From Geobacillus subterraneus (GTDB taxonomy: Bacteria > Bacillota > Bacilli > Bacillales > Anoxybacillaceae), in NCBI RefSeq assembly GCF_001618685.1, contig NZ_CP014342.1, positions 2,480,001-2,544,000 on the forward strand: a stretch of 64,000 nucleotides of DNA, written 5' to 3'. Under the pieces are notes generated by a model. The model searched no databases. It saw only the letters and a program-made list of their open reading frames with translations, and was not told the DNA's origin. The position numbers and the translations under genes are program-made. Shown here in pieces: positions 47,957 to 64,000 of the stretch; the first letter of the stretch is position 1; each line of letters begins with the position of its first letter.

Positions 47957-48000
47957 ATATAGTAATAGTCAAGACGAAATAAACAACCGCATACGGACAT

Positions 48001-48101
48001 TCTTATCAAGAGAGGGGGAGGGACTGGCCCGGTGAACCCTCAGCAACCTGGCCCGCGGCCAAGGTGCTAAATCCAGACAGGCAACAGCCTGGAAGATAAG
48101 A
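48001..48101 (+). ncRNA. SAM-I riboswitch (S-box)
   Basis: The leader has the conserved S-box core: P1 stem CTTATC/GATAAG, AGAGAGGGGGAGGGACTGGC, the GGTGAACCCTCAGCAACC kink-turn segment, and GGTGCTAAATCC. SAM binding stabilises P1. The 3' side of P1 (AAGAAGAAG at 48098-48106) can otherwise pair with CTTCTTCTT (48119-48127) as an antiterminator, so high SAM leads to termination ahead of yitJ-metH. Confidence 0.95.
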
Positions 48102-48112
48102 AGAAGCGAATG

Positions 48113-55059: not shown

Positions 55060-56079
55060 ATGAAAGCTGCTGTAGTGGAACAATTTAAGGAACCATTAAA
55101 AATAAAAGAGGTGAAAAAACCAACCATTTCATATGGAGAAGTATTAGTCCGCATTAAAGCATGCGGTGTATGCCATACGGACTTGCATGCCGCTCACGGT
55201 GATTGGCCAGTAAAACCAAAACTCCCTTTAATCCCCGGACATGAAGGAGTTGGGATTATCGAAGAAGTAGGTCCGGGCGTAACCCATTTAAAAGTGGGGG
55301 ATCGCGTTGGAATTCCTTGGTTATATTCTGCTTGCGGACATTGTGAATATTGTTTAAGCGGACAAGAAACATTATGCGAGCACCAAGAAAACGCTGGCTA
55401 CTCAGTCGATGGGGGGTATGCAGAATATTGTAGAGCTGCGGCAGACTATGTGGTCAAAATTCCTGACAACTTATCGTTTGAAGAAGCTGCTCCAATTTTC
55501 TGTGCCGGAGTTACTACCTATAAAGCGTTAAAAGTAACAGGTACAAAACCTGGAGAATGGGTAGCGATCTACGGTATCGGCGGCCTTGGGCACGTTGCCG
55601 TTCAATACGCTAAAGCGATGGGACTTAATGTCGTTGCAGTGGATATCGGCGATGAAAAACTTAAACTTGCAAAAGAGCTTGGCGCTGATCTTGTTGTAAA
55701 CCCTATGAAAGAAGATGCGACGCAATTTATGAAAGAGAAAGTTGGCGGAGTTCACGCGGCAGTTGTAACAGCTGTATCTAAACCAGCCTTTAAATCTGCG
55801 TACAATTCTATTCGCAGAGGCGGTACGTGCGTTCTTGTCGGATTGCCGCCGGAAGAAATGCCTATTCCAATTTTTGATACCGTACTAAACGGAATTAAAA
55901 TTATTGGCTCTATTGTCGGTACACGGAAGGACTTGCAAGAAGCTCTCCAATTCGCTGCGGAAGGTAAAGTAAAAACCATTATTGAAATGCAACCTCTTGA
56001 AAAAATTAATGAAGTATTTGACAGAATGCTAAAAGGTGAAATTAACGGACGGGTTGTTTTAACGTTAGAAGATCAATAA
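55060..56079 (+). CDS. adhT: Zinc-dependent alcohol dehydrogenase (ADH-HT type)
   Basis: 339 residues after GGGAGGGG. Catalytic zinc ligands in [17 protein letters not shown] and GHEGVG plus the late Cys in IFCAGVT; structural zinc in [18 protein letters not shown] site [14 protein letters not shown]. It matches the thermostable Geobacillus enzyme acting on ethanol and other primary alcohols, and possibly linked to formaldehyde or methanol metabolism given hxlAB next door. Codon use is AT-rich relative to the left half of the window, a sign of different origin. Confidence 0.94.
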
Positions 56080-56168: not shown

Positions 56169-56412
56169 TATAATGAACTGTTCTTGTTCTTTTGTTAGAT
56201 ACAACCGCAATTGATAACATGTCCAATCCTCTTCCCCCATCCCCTTACTTTTTTTATGTATTTTTGGCCATTTCAAATAAGGTTACATCAACTCAAGTAA
56301 AATCCCGCCTCATCGGCATTCTTCTCTCGCTTTCGTTTTGGTTAGAAACGGGAGACTCTCTTCCAAGTTACATGAAAAAGTAAAAGAGTATAAATCATAA
56401 CCAATAGTATAT

Positions 56413-56473
56413 TTTTTGACACTATGTAAAAATAAAGTGCGTACTTCTAAAGATAAATCATACATAGTATACT
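56413..56473 (+). promoter_or_regulatory. hxlA promoter region with HxlR-type operator
   Basis: Positions 56413-56447 start TTTTTGACACTATGTAA and end GTGCGTACTTC. The same 35-base element, with five mismatches, occurs on the minus strand at 63364-63330 before the nitrilase operon. TATACT at 56468-56473 is a plausible -10. HxlR is the known activator of hxlAB in B. subtilis; assignment here is inference. Confidence 0.6.
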
Positions 56474-56555
56474 CATCAGTGTGTAAGAGATAAAAACACA
56501 AAAAATACTACTACTTATACAACCAACAATAAATTTTTTGAGGGGTGAAGAATTC

Positions 56556-57191
56556 ATGGAATTACAATTAGCATTGGATCTTGTAAACATTCCAGAAGCG
56601 AAAGAGCTGGTAAAAGAGGTCGAGGAGTATGTTGATATTGTAGAAATCGGCACTCCAGTTATTATTAATGAAGGTCTTAGAGCCGTAAAGGAAATCAAAC
56701 AAGAATTCCCTCACTTAAAAGTATTGGCAGACTTAAAAATCATGGATGCAGCCGCATATGAAGTCATGAAAGCATCCGAAGCTGGTGCTGACATTATCAC
56801 TATACTTGGAGTTGCTGAAGATTTGTCCATCAAAGGCGCCGTGGAAGAAGCTAAAAAACAAGGCAAAAAAATCTTGGTGGACATGATCGGGGTGAAGAAT
56901 TTAGAAGAACGAGCGAAAGAAGTAGATGAGTTTGGAGTCGACTATATTTGTGTACACACAGGTTATGATCTTCAAGCAGTCGGAAAAAACTCTCTTGAAG
57001 ACCTTGCAACAATCAAACGTGTCGTGAAAAACGCAAAAACTGCGATCGCAGGCGGCATTAAATTAAACACATTGCCTGAAGTCATTAAAGCAAAACCTGA
57101 TCTTATCATTGTAGGTGGCGGTATTACTGGTCAAGAAGATAAACGAGCTGTAGCTGCTGAAATGAAAAAAATGATCCAACAAGGTGAATGA
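56556..57191 (+). CDS. hxlA: 3-hexulose-6-phosphate synthase
   Basis: 211 residues from ATG 56556 (GAGGGGTG upstream), the expected length. OMP-decarboxylase-like barrel with LALDLVNI, DLKIMDA, the phosphate loop IAGGIKL and IVGGGITG. It condenses formaldehyde with ribulose 5-phosphate, the first step of the RuMP pathway, detoxifying or fixing formaldehyde in the cytoplasm. Pairs with hxlB four bases downstream. Confidence 0.95.
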   Translation: MELQLALDLVNIPEAKELVKEVEEYVDIVEIGTPVIINEGLRAVKEIKQEFPHLKVLADLKIMDAAAYEVMKASEAGADIITILGVAEDLSIKGAVEEAKKQGKKILVDMIGVKNLEERAKEVDEFGVDYICVHTGYDLQAVGKNSLEDLATIKRVVKNAKTAIAGGIKLNTLPEVIKAKPDLIIVGGGITGQEDKRAVAAEMKKMIQQGE

Positions 57192-57195
57192 AATT

Positions 57196-57753
57196 ATGCA
57201 GACTACGCAATATTTAGGTGAAATCATAAAAGAGTTAAATCGGACAGTCGATTTCATCGCTGATGAAGAAGCTGAAAAATTGGTAAATGCGATTCTCGAA
57301 TCAAAGAAAATTTTTGTAGCCGGCGCAGGTAGATCTGGATTTATGTCCAAATCTTTTGCGATGCGAATGATGCACATGGGGTTAGACGCTTATGTAGTAG
57401 GCGAAACCATAACCCCTAACCTAGAACAAGATGACATTTTGATCATCGGATCGGGTTCAGGGGAAACGAGAAGTTTAGTTTCCATGGCCGAAAAAGCCAA
57501 AAGATTAGGTGCAACAATAGCGTTAGTGACCATTTCCCCTGAATCGACCATTGGACAATTAGCTGATATCACGGTCAAATTACCTGGCTCACCTAAAGAC
57601 CAATCAGACAATGGATACAAAACCATACAGCCGATGGGATCACTATTTGAGCAAACCCTCTTACTATTCTATGATGCTATCATATTAAGATGTATGGAGA
57701 AAAAAGGATTGGACTCCAATACCATGTTTAAAAGACATGCCAATCTGGAATAG
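57196..57753 (+). CDS. hxlB: 6-phospho-3-hexuloisomerase
   Basis: 185 residues from ATG 57196 (AAGGTG upstream, spanning the end of hxlA). SIS-fold sugar isomerase: VAGAGRSGFMSKSFAMRMMHMG, IIGSGSGETRSLV, and the C-terminal FKRHANLE carrying the catalytic His/Glu region. Converts hexulose 6-phosphate to fructose 6-phosphate. Confidence 0.95.
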   Translation: MQTTQYLGEIIKELNRTVDFIADEEAEKLVNAILESKKIFVAGAGRSGFMSKSFAMRMMHMGLDAYVVGETITPNLEQDDILIIGSGSGETRSLVSMAEKAKRLGATIALVTISPESTIGQLADITVKLPGSPKDQSDNGYKTIQPMGSLFEQTLLLFYDAIILRCMEKKGLDSNTMFKRHANLE

Positions 57754-57847
57754 AGTATAAGGACTCTTGCGCAGACAATCTTAAACCATTTAAAATTTTA
57801 AACTATTCAAACTGAATTTTCAACTTAAAAACCACGGGGGAAAGGGG

Positions 57848-57892
57848 AAAAGACCGCAGAGCTTTCCTTAAAAAACGCTTTGCGGTCTTTTT
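57848..57892 (+). terminator. Terminator after hxlB
   Basis: AAAAGACCGCA (57848-57858) pairs with TGCGGTCTTTTT (57881-57892), with inner GAGC/GCTT pairing. Confidence 0.85.
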
Positions 57893-58500
57893 ATGAACTG
57901 ATTTTTGAGCGGGAGATTGGATTCATGCCAATGCCAACCATGTGTGATCATATAGTATCAACCATTTCCAACAGTTTGATCATCATCATTCTCTGCGTAT
58001 ACATAAGATCGCTCTCCCTCGATCAGCGGTACCTCCATCATCACCTGCATTCTTAAAGGATGCAAATAAAATCGGTTACAGTTGGAACGATCTTTTGTCA
58101 GAACTCTTTCAAAATCGATGATCACTCCCTTAAGTAACTATGGAATTACACAACGAGAGAGGTTTAGAATGGAGATGATCATATCTTCATGTGTGAAGTT
58201 GTATCCATAAACATCTTATCTTTGAAGTCATACTTTTGGAAATGGGATAGTAAAACATATTATGTTGTTAACACTAACCTACAACGTATACGCAGAAACT
58301 AAGGGACATTGTACAACAGCAAGTACGAACTCACCTGTAAAAAGAAGGAGCTCATCCCGGGAATAACTTTTAGGATCTCTCTCCCAATTAGTCAGCGGAG
58401 ATTAACCTTTCATCCAAGTACTTTAAAAAGTCTGTTGCCTGCCATAATACATCAGTAAAAGCCTGTGATAAGGTTCATTCATTAACCTTGAAGAACGCAG
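57893..58500. other. Gene-poor stretch with decayed coding fragments
   Basis: About 600 bases without an intact gene. On the minus strand 57958-58125 has a 55-codon frame (FYLHPLRMQVMMEVPLIEGERSYVYAEN...) whose only start, GTG 58125, touches its ribosome-like AAGGGA and so looks non-functional, and 58380-58470 holds a 28-codon fragment (AFTDVLWQATDFLKYLDERL). Neither family is recognised. They suggest eroded genes at the junction between AT-rich hxlAB and GC-rich bpsA. Confidence 0.4.
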
Positions 58501-58540
58501 CTCCTTGTTGTGGGTGTCGGAAAACGGCGCCCGAACGCAA

Positions 58541-58578
58541 GCGCCCCCGGCGGCGGGAACACCCGCTACCGGGGGCGC
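58541..58578 (-). terminator. GC-rich hairpin after bpsA
   Basis: GCGCCCCCGG pairs with CCGGGGGCGC and encloses a smaller GCGGG/CCCGC hairpin. No T-run follows on the minus strand, unlike the other terminators here; it matches the high-GC character of bpsA. Confidence 0.6.
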
Positions 58579-58592
58579 GCAGCCTTTGGAGG

Positions 58593-59642
58593 CTATTCTT
58601 GCAGGGGAACGCAGAACTCTTCGTCGTAGTAGAGGTCCTGCCCAAGCTCCACTCGGCCGAAAAAGAGGGGCTGAGGCTCCTCGACCAGCTCCAGGCGGTA
58701 GACGGTGCTGACGTAGAAGGGGATATCGGGCTCCTTGACCGGCACCGGTGCCATGCGTGCCCAGTCTAGGGCCACAATGTCCTCCAACAGGTAGTCCTGG
58801 AAGGCGCCCAGCATGTCAGTGATGGCATAGCCCATGTCGAGAATGCCCTGCTGGATCTGCCGCCATTTCCGCCAAGAGGCCTCCAGGTAAGAGAGGCCAA
58901 AGTAGCCCGCGGCACCGGGCCCACGCAGCCCCTCTGTGCAGCGGCTTAAAAAAAGCAGGAGGCCCTTGACGGTGTCGACCGGGTCCGTGAAGAACACATC
59001 AAACTGGCCGCGGAGATGGGACGGCAATTCATCCCGCACGTCGTAGACCTCAGCGTGGACGTGGTCCCAACCACGGTCCCGAGCCACGTCGCGAATGAAG
59101 GTGATGATGCGCTCGTCCACATCCAGGACGCAGATGCGCCGCGGCAGCCCCGAGAGCGCGGCCGCAATGCTTGTAAGGTCATCATCGCCCAGTAGCAGAA
59201 TGTCTCGTCCCATCAGATCTCCCTGTTGGGCCATCAGGGCCAGCCGTCGCACGGTTGTCTCGGGCGTCACGTACCCTTGATCAAAGTCGGGCGTCGCCTT
59301 GGGCCGCATGGCTGCGATATCTTGGAAAGCAGCAAGGACGCTGTCAAAAGGCGGCCTCAGAACAATGCCGCGCCCCGCGCAAGCCTCACAACGCTGTTCG
59401 GCCACCCGTTCCAGACTCAGAGTTTCCGCCTGCTGACGCCCCGCCTCGGTGATCACGAAGCGATCGCCGTCGTAGACCACCAGTTCGCCCTCCAGGAGCG
59501 ACTGCAGGGCCTTCAGCACCTGGTGGGTCTGGGCTTGCGCTGCCCGCATCAGCTCCCAGTAAGATTTGGGACCGAAGTAGAGTGCACGAAGCAGAAGCGC
59601 GTCGATCCGACGGTTTTCCGCAGCAATACCTATTGTCGACAT
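58593..59642 (-). CDS. bpsA: Branched-chain polyamine synthase BpsA (N4-bis(aminopropyl)spermidine synthase)
   Basis: 349 residues from ATG 59642 (AAAGGAG upstream). An N-terminal winged-helix-like domain (ALYFGPKSYWELMRAA), C85-x2-C88, then a Rossmann methyltransferase-like fold with LGDDDLTSIA (151-160), CVLDVDERI and FTDPVDT. These are features of BpsA of Thermococcus and Thermus, which adds two aminopropyl groups to the inner nitrogen of spermidine to make a quaternary polyamine for growth at high temperature. GC content and codon choice are far above those of both neighbours, indicating recent transfer from a high-GC thermophile. Confidence 0.9.
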   Translation of the reverse strand: MSTIGIAAENRRIDALLLRALYFGPKSYWELMRAAQAQTHQVLKALQSLLEGELVVYDGDRFVITEAGRQQAETLSLERVAEQRCEACAGRGIVLRPPFDSVLAAFQDIAAMRPKATPDFDQGYVTPETTVRRLALMAQQGDLMGRDILLLGDDDLTSIAAALSGLPRRICVLDVDERIITFIRDVARDRGWDHVHAEVYDVRDELPSHLRGQFDVFFTDPVDTVKGLLLFLSRCTEGLRGPGAAGYFGLSYLEASWRKWRQIQQGILDMGYAITDMLGAFQDYLLEDIVALDWARMAPVPVKEPDIPFYVSTVYRLELVEEPQPLFFGRVELGQDLYYDEEFCVPLQE

Positions 59643-59803
59643 AGGTACCACTCCTTTCGCTCTAAAAGAGTAAAAGAGTAGAGACGCATTTCGCCACGAC
59701 TTCCTTAGTTTTCAGCGATCGCCGAGAAAACATACGTGGTGGTTCAAACGTTTTTGGAATGTTTGTCTGTTGTCTTCTTAGTGTGGGTCTAACAAGCATC
59801 CGG

Positions 59804-59944
59804 CTACATGTCTTCAATGGTTTTTTCTTCGTGACCATCACGATTCCCATTCAGATCATTTTTCCATAAAACTGCTTGCGACCGCTCTAAGTCGCTGCTA
59901 GCATCAATATATACGTTTCCCGAGCATGTCTCATCAAAGCGCAC
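59804..59944 (-). CDS. Small protein of 46 residues between speE and bpsA
   Basis: GTG 59944 directly follows the speE stop codon and has GGAGAG seven bases upstream, inside the last speE codons. The product VRFDETCSGNVYIDASSDLERSQAVLWKNDL... ends EEKTIEDM. The VYIDASSDLERS stretch vaguely resembles short YozQ/DUF4025-type Bacillales proteins. It would be co-translated with speE. Function unknown; coding is supported by the ribosome site only. The ~150 bases between it and bpsA show no gene. Confidence 0.45.
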   Translation of the reverse strand: MRFDETCSGNVYIDASSDLERSQAVLWKNDLNGNRDGHEEKTIEDM

Positions 59945-60790
59945 TTATTTTCTCTCCACAGTGATCAACTCTTGCACGAACACAGGCAACTGGAAAAGGG
60001 CTTTGTGCATTCTCGGATGATAATAGCGGGTATCAACTTGATGGAACCTCGTCTCATCCACTTCCATAGGATCATACTTTTTAGAACCAATCGTAAAGCT
60101 CCACAACCCGCTTGGATAGGTAGGAATGCTCGCAGTATAAAGGCGCGTAATTGGGAAGAGCGAAGAGATATCCTTAAATACTCGACGAATCAGATCACGG
60201 TTAAACCAAGGAGATTCCGTTTGTGCAACCATGATTCCGTCTTCTTTTAGTGCTTCAAAAATCGATTGATAAAACGGCTTTTGGAACAAGCCAACAGCTA
60301 GTCCCACAGGCTCGGTGGAATCCACCAAAATCACATCATATTTTCCTTTGTTTTCTTCAACATGTTTAATTCCGTCAACTACTTCAATTTTGACGCGTGG
60401 ATCATCTAAAGCACCCGCGATTTTGGGGAAATAAGTTTTGGAAGCTTCGATCACTTTGCCATCAATCTCTGCCAAAGTAGCTGTTTTTACCGAAGGATAT
60501 TTTAAAATCTCACGAATGGCTCCCCCATCTCCACCGCCAACAACAAGCACATGTTCCGGATTAGGATGGGTATTCATCGCCACATGGGTAATCATTTCAT
60601 GGTATACAAACTCATCAACATCGGTAGTCATTACCATGCCATCTAAAACAAGCATGTTGCCAAATTGGACTGTTTCAATTACATCAAGGGTTTGAAATTC
60701 CGTTTTTTCATGGTGTAAAGTACGACGAATCTTGGTTGTGATTCCATGATCGAGAGTTTGTTTTTCTGTATACCACAGTTCCATCTCCAT
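59945..60790 (-). CDS. speE: Spermidine synthase / aminopropyltransferase
   Basis: 281 residues. LWYTEKQT at the start, [15 protein letters not shown] (dcSAM binding), the gatekeeper DSTEPVG and [17 protein letters not shown] match Bacillus SpeE. It transfers aminopropyl from decarboxylated SAM to putrescine (or agmatine in some thermophiles). With bpsA downstream it would supply the spermidine that BpsA branches. ATG 60790 is used; ATG 60784 is possible. Confidence 0.93.
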
Positions 60791-60861
60791 CCTGTAAAAG
60801 TCCTCTCTCCTTTATTCGAATTTTGAAATAAGTTCTAGTTGTAATGTGCTATTAAGATAAA

Positions 60862-60929
60862 GCATCCTTCATCTTTCAGATATCGAATAGCATTCTTGCT
60901 GCTTTCGATAGAGAAACAATAAAGGATGC
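60862..60929 (-). terminator. Hairpin between the GNAT genes and speE
   Basis: GCATCCTT pairs with AAGGATGC around an inner TATCGAA/TTCGATA stem. On the minus strand a TTTATC follows. It may partly separate the nitrilase-GNAT part from speE-bpsA. No gene in 60791-60984. Confidence 0.5.
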
Positions 60930-60984
60930 CGCTAAATCCGGAAAAATTTTTTAAGGTTTCATGAGCATTGCGTTTCTATAGGGT

Positions 60985-61662
60985 TTAAATCGGTAATAGT
61001 GTGACGGTATCTTTCGCTTCCAGATTTTCAATCATTTCATACCAAGAATTCGGTTTATTCGATAAGACAGAATAATAACGTTTCAAAAACTTCACAACAA
61101 GATCTGCTGGAAGTTCATTCACGCTATCGTCCATCGGAAGAAAACAAAGATCAAGACCAGTTACGGCTTCTCCATCATTGTTCCAAGATGGATGGACATA
61201 AGGGAAGTCAAGCCGCTTATATCCCAAATGAGATAATACCTCACGACGAACATATGGATCCATCGGCTTAATCCCGCCAAATTCATAATGCTCTACCCGG
61301 TAAGGATCATAAATCTCGGCGAACATGCCATATAACTGCTTTCCATTTGCTCCAGCCCAGTTGTTCAAATCCTCTAACCGCTTTTTGGCTAAAAACCGGC
61401 CGATCCCTAGTCCTGCTTGGCCGATAATGGTGAAATCTGTCATCGCGACATTTAAATCTTCATAATAGCGGTACTCAGTCGCGCCTACTACCTCTCCTTC
61501 GTGAACGGCAACACAAACACGAATTCCCGGATCTTCCAGAGGCTCTTTCCATAAATCGAATGCTAATACTTCTTCAGGAGGAAATACATTTTGCATCAAT
61601 TGGTGCATTTTTTTAAACAAAGGGTCTTCAATACTCGTAATTCTGCGATATTCCATCTTCAT
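60985..61662 (-). CDS. GNAT-family acetyltransferase-like protein
   Basis: 225 residues from ATG 61662 (AAGGAG just before; 61665 and 61656 are alternative ATGs). N-terminal PLFKKMHQLMQNVFPPEE, VAVHEGEVVGATEYRYYEDLNVAMTDFTIIG and AGLGIGRFLAKKRLEDL fit a GNAT fold with a slightly altered acetyl-CoA loop. The C-terminal ~80 residues are an extension without known domain. Located eight bases after the second GNAT gene in the same operon. Substrate unknown; polyamines are a candidate from context. Confidence 0.7.
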   Translation of the reverse strand: MKMEYRRITSIEDPLFKKMHQLMQNVFPPEEVLAFDLWKEPLEDPGIRVCVAVHEGEVVGATEYRYYEDLNVAMTDFTIIGQAGLGIGRFLAKKRLEDLNNWAGANGKQLYGMFAEIYDPYRVEHYEFGGIKPMDPYVRREVLSHLGYKRLDFPYVHPSWNNDGEAVTGLDLCFLPMDDSVNELPADLVVKFLKRYYSVLSNKPNSWYEMIENLEAKDTVTLLPI

Positions 61663-61673
61663 CATTCTCCTTG

Positions 61674-62348
61674 TTAAGATTTTGGTCTATAAAAAGGATT
61701 TTTCCATTCCATCAGTGCTGCATAATTGCACGATTCTTCATCCTCTAAATAGTTCGCCACCACTTTAACAGGTGTACGGCCGCAACGGAGCAGGAAGGTA
61801 ATAACAGGGTCCTTCAATTCGCCTTTTACTACAGCTTCGAGATATTGTTCCGCTGTCATCTCATGAGCTTTTTTATGATAGCCAGGCATTCTCCCTCCGC
61901 CTAACAGCCGTTCTAATCCCAAATGAACAACCACTTCATACATGGATAACATCAGCCATTTTCCCAGCCCTAATTTGCGGTAGGCAGGACGCACGCCAAT
62001 ATCAACAACATAGAGCGTATTCCCGTTTGGGTTATGGTTACGGATATATCCATTATCCGTGATCTCTTCCCATGTATGATCCGGATGGCTGGGATCAAAG
62101 TCAACAATAAGTCCCGTCATCGACCCCGCAATTTCACCATTCACCTCAACACATAAGGCTCCCTCTGGAAACAGTGTAACATGATTTTTCAGCTGTTCCG
62201 TATTCCACCATAATTCAGACGGGAATGGCGGAGGAAAACTTTCCTGTTGAATGCGGATTAAGCCAGGGAAGTCCTTTTCTTCATAATTTCGGATTACCGC
62301 TGGGACAGGACGATCTTGGTCAAAGACGTAAAACTCCTTTCGATACAT
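61674..62348 (-). CDS. GNAT-family N-acetyltransferase
   Basis: 224 residues after AGGAGGGTG. IRNYEEKDFPGLIRIQQESFP, VNGEIAGSMTGLIVDFD and the acetyl-CoA motif VVDIGVRPAYRKLGLGKWLM are clear, followed by a lid GGGRMPGYHKKAHEMTAEQYLE. In B. subtilis YhcX a GNAT domain like this is fused to a nitrilase domain; here the two parts are adjacent separate genes (34 bases apart), which supports a shared job. Confidence 0.82.
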   Translation of the reverse strand: MYRKEFYVFDQDRPVPAVIRNYEEKDFPGLIRIQQESFPPPFPSELWWNTEQLKNHVTLFPEGALCVEVNGEIAGSMTGLIVDFDPSHPDHTWEEITDNGYIRNHNPNGNTLYVVDIGVRPAYRKLGLGKWLMLSMYEVVVHLGLERLLGGGRMPGYHKKAHEMTAEQYLEAVVKGELKDPVITFLLRCGRTPVKVVANYLEDEESCNYAALMEWKNPFYRPKS

Positions 62349-62382
62349 TCTTCACCCTCCTCATAGAGCAGCTAGTCACATC

Positions 62383-63240
62383 TTATTTCCAGTCCGGATA
62401 AAGATCCGTGCGCCGATCACGCCACGTAGTGACGGAACCACTTTCGCGAACCTGATATAACAGCTCTAAATCGAGATCAGCGGTTACAATCATATCATGG
62501 TTGATTTCCCCTTCTACCAAGATGCCGCGTGGAGGAAACGGGATGTCGTTCGGTGTAATCACCGCCGCTTGCCCAAAATTTGCCCGCATAAAATCAACCG
62601 TAGGAAGGGAACCTACCGTACCAGTGGTGACGACATAGACTTGATTTTCGATTGCTCTCGCATGACTGGTGTAACGGACACGATGAAATCCGTGACGATC
62701 ATCGGTGCAAGAAGGACAGAAAATGACATCAGCACCCTTGGCCTTTGCCATTCGAACAATTTCTGGAAATTCGATGTCATAGCAAGTCAACATCGCAATG
62801 GTTCCTTTGTCGGTCTCGAACACCTGCAGGCTTTCTCCAGGAGACATGTTCCATTCTTTTACTTCCGTCGGAGTGATATGAAGCTTTGGCTGTTCGGCGA
62901 CTCTTCCGTCTGGATAGAATAAATGAGCCACGTTGTATAATCGTCCGCCTTTACGGATGACATGGGTTCCTCCAATAATATGCATCTTTGTTTGTTTAGC
63001 CAAATTAATAAATAAAGACCGATATTGTTCTGTAAAATCAGGAAGATCTTGAATGGTCAAAGGCTGCCCTTGCTGGTTGCCAATAGACATTAGCTGGGTG
63101 GTAAAAAATTCTGGAAACAAGACAAAATCCGCTCCAAACTCTTCCGCTGTTTTAATATAATGTTCTACTTGTTTGGCAAATTCCTCAAACGATTGGATGG
63201 TATGGAGATGATATTGAACCGCTGAAACCCTCAGTTTCAT
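62383..63240 (-). CDS. Carbon-nitrogen hydrolase (nitrilase superfamily, YhcX C-terminal type)
   Basis: 285 residues after GAGAGGGGG. Catalytic triad: E44 in LFPEFFTTQ, the lysine in PKLHITPTEVKEW and the cysteine in LTCYDIEFPE. Such enzymes hydrolyse amides such as N-carbamoylputrescine or omega-amides. First gene of the leftward operon nitrilase, GNAT, GNAT, speE, small gene, bpsA. An amidase acting on acylated or carbamoylated polyamines is an inference from the neighbours. Confidence 0.88.
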   Translation of the reverse strand: MKLRVSAVQYHLHTIQSFEEFAKQVEHYIKTAEEFGADFVLFPEFFTTQLMSIGNQQGQPLTIQDLPDFTEQYRSLFINLAKQTKMHIIGGTHVIRKGGRLYNVAHLFYPDGRVAEQPKLHITPTEVKEWNMSPGESLQVFETDKGTIAMLTCYDIEFPEIVRMAKAKGADVIFCPSCTDDRHGFHRVRYTSHARAIENQVYVVTTGTVGSLPTVDFMRANFGQAAVITPNDIPFPPRGILVEGEINHDMIVTADLDLELLYQVRESGSVTTWRDRRTDLYPDWK

Positions 63241-63329
63241 AGTATCCCCCTCTCTTGTTATCCATCTAGTAACGTTTCGCCTCAGTCATGTGGCGTTACT
63301 GATATTATTAGACACATCATTCAATTTAA

Positions 63330-63364
63330 CAAGTACACACTTTCTTGTTACATAGTGTGAAAAA
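63330..63364 (-). promoter_or_regulatory. Operator-like element of the nitrilase operon, shared with hxlA
   Basis: Minus strand reads TTTTTCACACTATGTAA ... GTGTGTACTTG. It matches 56413-56447 at 30 of 35 positions. It lies ~90 bases before the nitrilase ATG, with TAATAAT-like -10 material between. Confidence 0.65.
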
Positions 63365-63624
63365 GTATACTAAAAGAGGATAAACGAAAAAGGAGAATAA
63401 AAAAAGAAGTCTGCAGAAACGATGAGGGATCTAATGATGGAGATAATGTTTTGTGAGCTGCAACCACTCTTAACCTACTGCCGCTTCTATGGGAATCCCC
63501 CGCACATTAGAAGCAGGAGTCTTCTCTCCTTAACTTATGTAAATGAATCCCCTACTGACGAAATTTCAGGAGAGTTTCTGTCAGACCGGTCTCACATCCA
63601 AACAGTCATCAACGTACATACAGA

Positions 63625-63774: not shown

Positions 63775-64000
63775 CTATTTGGCGGCCTCATTGATTTTTA
63801 CTTGACCTTTTACGACCGTCTCCATATAGTTTTTGCCCCATTCATACATGGCATCAAGAATTGGCATCAGGCTTTTTCCATGCTCGGTCAGTGAATATTC
63901 CACTTTTGGCGGAACAACAGGATAGACTTCGCGATGAACAATTTGATCTTGCTCCAGCTCTCGCAACTGGTTAACCAGCATTCTTTGGGTGATCCCCGGC
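63775..64000 (-). CDS. HxlR-family winged-helix regulator, C-terminal part (cut by window edge)
   Basis: 75 residues reach the stop at 63775: [54 protein letters not shown] is the canonical HxlR (PF01638) recognition helix, wing and dimer helix. The start lies beyond the window. The family includes HxlR, the formaldehyde-responsive activator of hxlAB. It is a candidate to bind the 35-base element before hxlA and the nitrilase gene; whether it is HxlR itself cannot be told. Confidence 0.88.

Follow-up and report, generated by a model that had tools for sequence, protein, structure and literature searches.

A predicted HxlR operator shared by formaldehyde-fixation genes and a nitrilase-GNAT-GNAT operon in Geobacillus subterraneus and its relatives

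The closest described counterpart of the system reported here is the HxlR-hxlAB pair of Bacillus subtilis, in which an activator of the DUF24/HxlR type (PDB 7bzd, 7bze and 7bzg) controls hxlAB. Formaldehyde crosslinks a Cys-Lys pair of B. subtilis HxlR and activates an hxlAB-promoter reporter, according to the extracts of PMC7835342 and PMC8879981 used here. Within the extracts of PMC8879981 and PMC11577753, hxlAB (hps-phi) is the only HxlR target named in B. subtilis and B. methanolicus. The open-licence papers that we searched yielded no HxlR target beyond hxlAB and no literature on an HxlR regulon, box or operator. Two HxlR binding regions were reportedly described by Yurimoto in 2005. Here we analyse 64,000 nt of Geobacillus subterraneus (NZ_CP014342.1, positions 2,480,001–2,544,000 of the forward strand; hereafter the window), taken from a single-contig genome of 3.47 Mb. 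The window shares with the B. subtilis system an orthologous regulator, its Cys-x-Lys sensor, the hxlAB target and a predicted activator-type site before hxlA. It differs in that the same site, a 42-bp element, also precedes a nitrilase-GNAT1-GNAT2 operon and zwf-gnd and, in relatives, genes for an iron-type alcohol dehydrogenase (Fe-ADH) and other enzymes of the ribulose monophosphate (RuMP) cycle. With high confidence, we read this element as the operator of the formaldehyde sensor HxlR, which would switch on hxlAB, zwf-gnd and nitrilase-GNAT1-GNAT2. The formaldehyde regulon predicted in this way is wider than the literature describes.

Two other described systems resemble parts of this locus. 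The B. subtilis AdhR regulon (adhA-yraA) is likewise formaldehyde-induced and contains a dehydrogenase and the DJ-1/PfpI protein YraA, comparable to the DJ-1/PfpI gene that follows GNAT2 in some relatives of the window; it differs in having a MerR-family regulator and in being a different operon (extracts of PMC11577753). In Anoxybacillus sp. SK3-4, genes C289_2549–2555 combine an intracellular proteinase, a GNAT protein, a nitrilase, HxlR, zwf and gnd in one stretch that is reported to be similar to Geobacillus and likely to reflect gene transfer (extracts of PMC3948429). In those same extracts, the account of the SK3-4 stretch proposes neither a regulatory element nor a link to formaldehyde.

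The 35-bp match between the two operons on which the initial annotation drew is well above background. Positions 56413–56447 (plus strand) and 63364–63330 (minus strand) are identical at 30 of 35 positions in a pairwise comparison, and the runner-up match of either copy in the window, with both strands searched, is 21/35. Across 200 first-order Markov shuffles of the window the hxlA copy never matched better than 25/35, and its maximum was again 25 when 200 64-kb sequences were generated by shuffling with AT-rich intergenic composition. At its full length of 42 bp the element has 36 of 42 positions identical between 56406–56447 (plus strand, 5′ of hxlA) and 63330–63371 (minus strand, 5′ of the nitrilase operon). 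We built two models of this putative HxlR-type operator, namely a position weight matrix (PWM) trained on 12 sites from the genus, three of them nitrilase/GNAT1 sites, and a sequence-only model of 51 aligned sites (R1); both window sites belong to both training sets. The hxlA site scores 60.5 bits with the PWM and E 5e-12 with R1, and the nitrilase-operon site is recovered by the PWM, by R1 and by the pairwise match. Just these two operators reach 16 bits in a PWM scan of the window. An Rfam scan of the window at gathering scores found no RNA element near the shared element, its sole match being an S-adenosylmethionine riboswitch at 48000–48102.

In searches of the whole genome the element turned up in this cluster alone. 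A pattern search allowing up to three mismatches returned three matches: the hxlA site, the nitrilase-operon site and a third copy 2 kb beyond the right edge of the window, with an Fe-ADH remnant and zwf-gnd downstream of it. The hxlR gene also has a weaker copy in front of it. R1, run with stricter filters on the best 150 candidates per genome (here the best 150 of 1508), gave five matches at E ≤ 0.01 in the 3.47-Mb genome, every one in this cluster. The genes downstream of the element in this genome are thus hxlA, the nitrilase operon, hxlR and zwf. Of these, hxlA (3-hexulose-6-phosphate synthase; 56556–57191, plus strand; TIGR03128 above cut-off) is followed by hxlB (6-phospho-3-hexuloisomerase; 57196–57753, plus strand; TIGR03127 above cut-off).

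The element occupies a fixed position relative to the promoter. A −10 hexamer exactly 20 nt 3′ of the element is the best match (at least 4/6, ties counted) in 117 of 135 sites, one of 136 having been dropped because it lacked 40 nt on both sides. Because of this offset the element ends at −35, the usual place for an activator, and we therefore classify it as a predicted activator-type site. The hxlA promoter in the window, read from the sequence, follows this rule with a TATACT hexamer (56468–56473, plus strand) exactly 20 nt after the operator. A consensus scan placed the nitrilase-operon promoter, TTGTTA-N17-AATAAT, at 63304–63332 (minus strand), where its first hexamer overlaps the operator end. 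The same scan identified a divergent promoter-like sequence, GTGTCA-N17-TATGAT, within the left arm of the hxlA operator (56394–56422, minus strand). This is probably a relic of the divergent hxlR-hxlA layout known from other Bacillales; hxlR is divergent behind 28 of the 58 hxlA-associated sites in the HxlR loci of relatives described below.

An HxlR-family gene had been noted at the right edge of the window, and it is real (PF01638, E 1e-40). Its C-terminal part occupies 63775–64000 on the minus strand and the gene continues outside the window to about 64155 (L004:775-1155). The product, an orthologue of B. subtilis HxlR (phmmer E 1e-57 to 7bzd), which formaldehyde activates, retains the Cys-x-Lys sensor motif as NCEKEL. 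The motif is kept in 117 of 117 HxlR homologue copies that are 58 to 100% identical, a count from which matches with an off-locus N-terminus were dropped and in which some genomes appear twice, since the family loci and the loci of relatives overlap. The hxlR promoter of this strain, read by eye as GTGACA-N17-TATAAT, is overlapped by the gene's own copy of the element, which suggests that hxlR is autoregulated. Just beyond the right edge of the window (L004:1160-5130), hxlR and the zwf promoter are separated by an insertion sequence.

The element recurs with HxlR across the family, as the initial annotation had proposed to check by searching before hxlAB, yhcX-like or bpsA genes in other genomes. 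It occurs in seven of 14 genomes of the genus, in none of which a reversed-pattern control was found, and it precedes all 16 hxlA genes on the fetched family loci and the window. Among 41 family genomes, R1 matches at E < 1e-4 are confined to the 20 with an HxlR orthologue (at least 85% identical) and to G006, which keeps the GNAT operon and the element without hxlR. The 20 family genomes that have neither an HxlR orthologue nor a class A operon (defined next) contain no strong R1 match. Six weak R1 places (E 0.001–0.005) lie outside the known sites; five of them are directly beside an HxlR paralogue of 60–62% identity, of which the family has nine, and the sixth is G026:C118.

GNAT1 falls into two classes in the family. 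Class A copies share at least 90% identity with that of the window and occupy 22 places in 21 genomes, mostly within HxlR clusters; the exceptions are G006, without hxlR, and G040 and G020, where class A GNAT1 is on another contig. All 22 places were fetched, and in 21 of them the element stands before the nitrilase gene or, in loci that lack this gene, before GNAT1. The lone exception, L076, has just 339 bp of contig upstream, and the contig with its HxlR gene has two sites in the expected positions. In Anoxybacillus ayderensis (L075:7605-8060), a few hundred extra bases separate the element from the nitrilase gene. Class B GNAT1 (74–82% identical, 27 places) had no site of at least 16 bits in any of the 14 loci fetched; this family scan used the 12-site PWM and had no shuffles. 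HxlR orthologues (20 genomes) and class A GNAT1 (21 genomes) overlap in 20 (Fisher p 8e-11, phylogeny ignored), and an HxlB orthologue (at least 91% identical) is present in 16, all within the 20 with HxlR. The distribution of HxlR therefore follows that of the GNAT operon no less closely than that of hxlAB. Four genomes with HxlR and the operon yielded no HxlB orthologue (G014, G024, G026 and G040; drafts could hide genes), and G024 has an hxlB homologue at 42% only. Since operon and HxlR persist in these four genomes, the operon may be a primary HxlR target.

Similar sites extend to HxlR loci of other relatives. We sampled 80 such loci, the best 80 of 499 confirmed candidates, with several from one genome. 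They contain 134 sites of at least 25 bits, as against 0 in shuffled copies (one first-order Markov copy per locus). The gene downstream within 600 bp is hxlA at 58 sites, zwf at 23, nitrilase at 14, GNAT1 at four and gnd at three; the remaining 32 sites have other downstream genes, and 25 of these sites are situated behind a divergent hxlR. Nitrilase genes are present in 19 of the 80 loci, 16 of them with a site in front, and Paenibacillus sp. J5C2022 (L111) has hxlA-hxlB-nit-gnat1-gnat2 in a single run. Among the 32 sites with other downstream genes, the element is followed by Fe-ADH-zwf-gnd (L096, L104), glpX-fba-tkt (L112, L115, L126, L153), an fba-like gene (L113, L140) or an oxidoreductase-transaldolase-rpe set (L115). 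Several of these names come from translations read by eye; Pfam assignments cover one glpX, one Fe-ADH, the GFO/IDH-type oxidoreductase and the Gp_dh_N fragment of L153. The glpX-fba-tkt and transaldolase-rpe sets (L112, L115, L126, L153) suggest that in some Neobacillus, Bacillus and Scopulibacillus the regulon covers more of the RuMP cycle. In Anoxybacillus pushchinoensis, an EcoO109I-type restriction endonuclease gene (PF14511; L101:5133-5873) lies downstream of the element adjoining hxlR.

We also scanned GNAT2 loci throughout the order with a matrix of 47 training sites from which all nitrilase/GNAT sites were excluded; some of the tested genomes had lent hxlR or hxlA sites to it. Of 397 order genomes, 77 encode a GNAT2 orthologue, and 74 of 79 places were tested, the other five having been part of the family analysis. 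In 19 of the 74 loci an upstream site scores 15 bits or more, as against 0 in shuffles (one letter shuffle per locus). Four loci with an HxlR homologue nearby (L226, L238, L261 and L266) have variants that score just or well below this threshold and retain a similar right half. Four near relatives of B. subtilis, with HxlR 89–95% identical to that of B. subtilis, likewise have a variant element before hxlA (24–29 bits). Its left half is AGTATCCTCCAAGTAACT in L280 and L281 and similar in L282 and L283, and the same variant left half is found at the nitrilase operons of L226, L247, L249 and L254. Diverged HxlR homologues (58–67% identical, Cys-x-Lys kept) were seen near nitrilase operons with a changed left half, adjacent to them in L238, L247, L249, L261 and L266 and at a distance of about 3 kb in L254. 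This pattern may reflect joint divergence of regulator and operator.

From the observed element, its geometry, its co-occurrence with HxlR, the sensor residues and the conserved targets, we infer a sequence of binding and induction. Formaldehyde would crosslink the Cys-x-Lys pair in HxlR, and activated HxlR dimers, putatively two, would attach to both halves of the 42-bp site, whose end coincides with a degenerate −35 position. HxlR would then switch on the nitrilase-GNAT1-GNAT2 operon together with hxlAB, which serves formaldehyde fixation, and zwf-gnd, whose products regenerate ribulose-5-phosphate in the dissimilatory RuMP cycle. The copy over the divergent promoter of hxlR would provide autoregulation. 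Such a scheme would turn HxlR from a one-operon switch into the head of a multi-operon formaldehyde regulon with a predictable operator. Synthetic methylotrophy would also gain a predicted formaldehyde-responsive operator from thermophiles.

Several observations weigh against this scheme or limit its reach. The co-occurrence of HxlR and class A GNAT1 is inflated by the adjacency of hxlR and by horizontal transfer of the whole cluster. Part of the 134-site count arises by construction, as the 12 training sites of the PWM came from the genus and a few of the loci belong to the same genomes. Nitrilase-bearing HxlR loci do not uniformly fit: the sites before the nitrilase are weak in L124 and L170 (14 and 18 bits), a PWM scan detected none before the nitrilase in L109 and L132, and the L111 nitrilase lies behind an hxl promoter with weak sites of its own (15 and 18 bits). 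In the present strain the regulon is partly decayed: a short remnant is left of the Fe-ADH gene, and an insert of about 200 bp appears, by eye, to interrupt zwf. Moreover, no site reaches 15 bits in 55 of the 74 GNAT2 loci from the order, and sites are found at nine of 13 loci with an HxlR homologue within 7 kb and at 10 of 61 without one. The operon therefore also lives outside the regulon, which speaks against a universal link; its recruitment into the regulon appears to be clade-specific.

The nitrilase-superfamily carbon-nitrogen hydrolase (62383–63240, minus strand; PF00795, E 1e-30) has a Glu-Lys-Cys triad, E44, K119 and C153, that is invariant in 18 sequences. It fits no curated family of known function, such as deaminated-glutathione amidase, AguB or formamidase, all 10 NCBIfam matches being below cut-off. 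GNAT1 (61674–62348, minus strand; PF00583) has a predicted fold close to GNAT-like decarboxylases, with Foldseek matches to SxtA (E 4e-13), GphF (8e-13) and CurA (2e-11) from a model with a predicted local distance difference test (pLDDT) score of 86.7, and a profile match to SxtA (E 1e-8). These decarboxylases are the closest solved folds to GNAT1. The dyad of the CurA decarboxylase is His-Thr/Ser (extracts of PMC3701320), and H105 of GNAT1 aligns with the His common to SxtA and GphF. GNAT1 differs from the three in being a stand-alone protein and in that the Thr/Ser partner is not cleanly aligned. GNAT2 (60985–61665, minus strand) has a generic GNAT fold, with Pfam matches below cut-off only, an AlphaFold2 pLDDT of 85.7 and Foldseek E 7e-8 to GNATs. 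Most likely, the operon handles formaldehyde damage or adducts by amide or nitrile hydrolysis combined with acyl transfer or decarboxylation. More tentatively, and at somewhat less than even chance, nitrilase-GNAT1-GNAT2, with a DJ-1/PfpI protein or branched-chain polyamine synthase as an optional addition, would form an undescribed Bacillales pathway for repair or salvage of formaldehyde adducts, switched by HxlR alongside the RuMP cycle. A conserved enzyme set tied to formaldehyde makes testable the question of bacterial responses besides fixing or oxidising it.

Two other origins of the element can be weighed against an HxlR operator. The fixed position relative to the −10 hexamer would also be expected if the element were a promoter class of an alternative sigma factor or the site of another global regulator. 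We consider this highly improbable: the −10 is of the ordinary sigma-A type, the five matches in the genome all lie by hxlR-linked genes, and there is no strong match in the 20 family genomes without HxlR orthologue and class A operon. Its left half also differs both in the B. subtilis group and at nitrilase operons beside diverged HxlR homologues. Still less credible, indeed nearly negligible, is that the two copies are remnants of a duplicated mobile repeat without regulatory function. A mobile element in the family can carry a copy, as the composite transposon of G038 does. Against such an origin, similarity in the alignment drops after the promoter, and the element is conserved across genera with fixed promoter geometry and zero background. 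The G038 transposon itself (L311; G038:C1:1797000-1803000) holds an Fe-ADH gene with a double HxlR element between two inverted transposase copies. On contig C3 of G038 the element is present three times and on C1 twice (L310 is G038:C3:1-4000), and the full transposon was identified at L311 only.

An alternative of a different kind concerns the output of the operon. The initial annotation described one operon, nitrilase-GNAT-GNAT-speE-bpsA, and proposed that a single regulator links formaldehyde fixation to polyamine modification. The gene order is correct, with an extra speE-like copy (59945–60790, minus strand) and bpsA, a branched-chain polyamine synthase gene (58593–59642, minus strand; PF01861, E 2e-75), after GNAT2. 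GNAT2 and speE are separated by 194 bp, and bpsA is preceded by a gap of about 300 bp. For the minus strand of both gaps a consensus scan listed nothing resembling a terminator. The GNAT2-speE gap can form a long hairpin, though it folds just modestly better than shuffled sequence (z −1.7); read-through from GNAT2 into speE may occur. That speE-bpsA is the functional output of the operon would be in keeping with the negative terminator scan between GNAT2 and speE, with bpsA being confined to this cluster in the family (all 10 places, in nine of 41 genomes, two of them fragments; full length in eight) and with polyamine acetyltransferase-like folds among the structural matches: SpeG spermidine acetyltransferase, among many others, in the top 50 for GNAT2 (ranks 37, 41 and 44) and PaiA for GNAT1 (ranks 42 and 47). 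The cluster speE is a third paralogue found in four of 41 genomes, once truncated, and two other speE homologues are encoded elsewhere in 40 of 41 genomes (G025 has one). Six family genomes (G004, a member of the window's genus, G014, G020, G026, G027 and G039; loci L063, L075 (= L102), L076, L078 (= L105), L079 (= L104) and L080; Pfam on one copy) have a DJ-1/PfpI gene after GNAT2, in the slot taken by bpsA or speE-bpsA in other clusters of Geobacillus and Parageobacillus; in further genomes the slot holds nothing. Given these frequencies, as against 21 of 41 for class A GNAT1, and the DJ-1/PfpI gene in their slot, the polyamine genes are variable passengers, the cargo of a sublineage. The best fold and profile matches of GNAT1, to GNAT-like decarboxylases, likewise point away from polyamines. 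We therefore regard a formaldehyde-polyamine output as unlikely; the restriction of bpsA to this cluster within the family leaves room for a minor form of the idea. A polyamine link is a local feature only, and the conserved core is nitrilase-GNAT1-GNAT2. Of the proposed single regulator, predicted shared HxlR control of both units thus stands, on the co-occurrence and on the sites at 21 of 22 class A loci and 16 of 16 hxlA genes, and its general extension to polyamine modification falls. This analysis found no support for the accompanying suggestion that amine or polyamine breakdown releases aldehydes, and open-licence papers on polyamines and formaldehyde offered nothing useful.

The window has two further features of note. 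An adhA/adhP-type Zn alcohol dehydrogenase gene (55060–56079, plus strand; E 7e-223 to PDB 1rjw; AdhP equivalog) is located just 5′ of hxlA, and the window PWM scan at the 16-bit threshold placed no operator before it. Farther upstream, an S-adenosylmethionine riboswitch (48000–48102, plus strand) directly precedes two long genes that, by eye, read like methionine synthesis.

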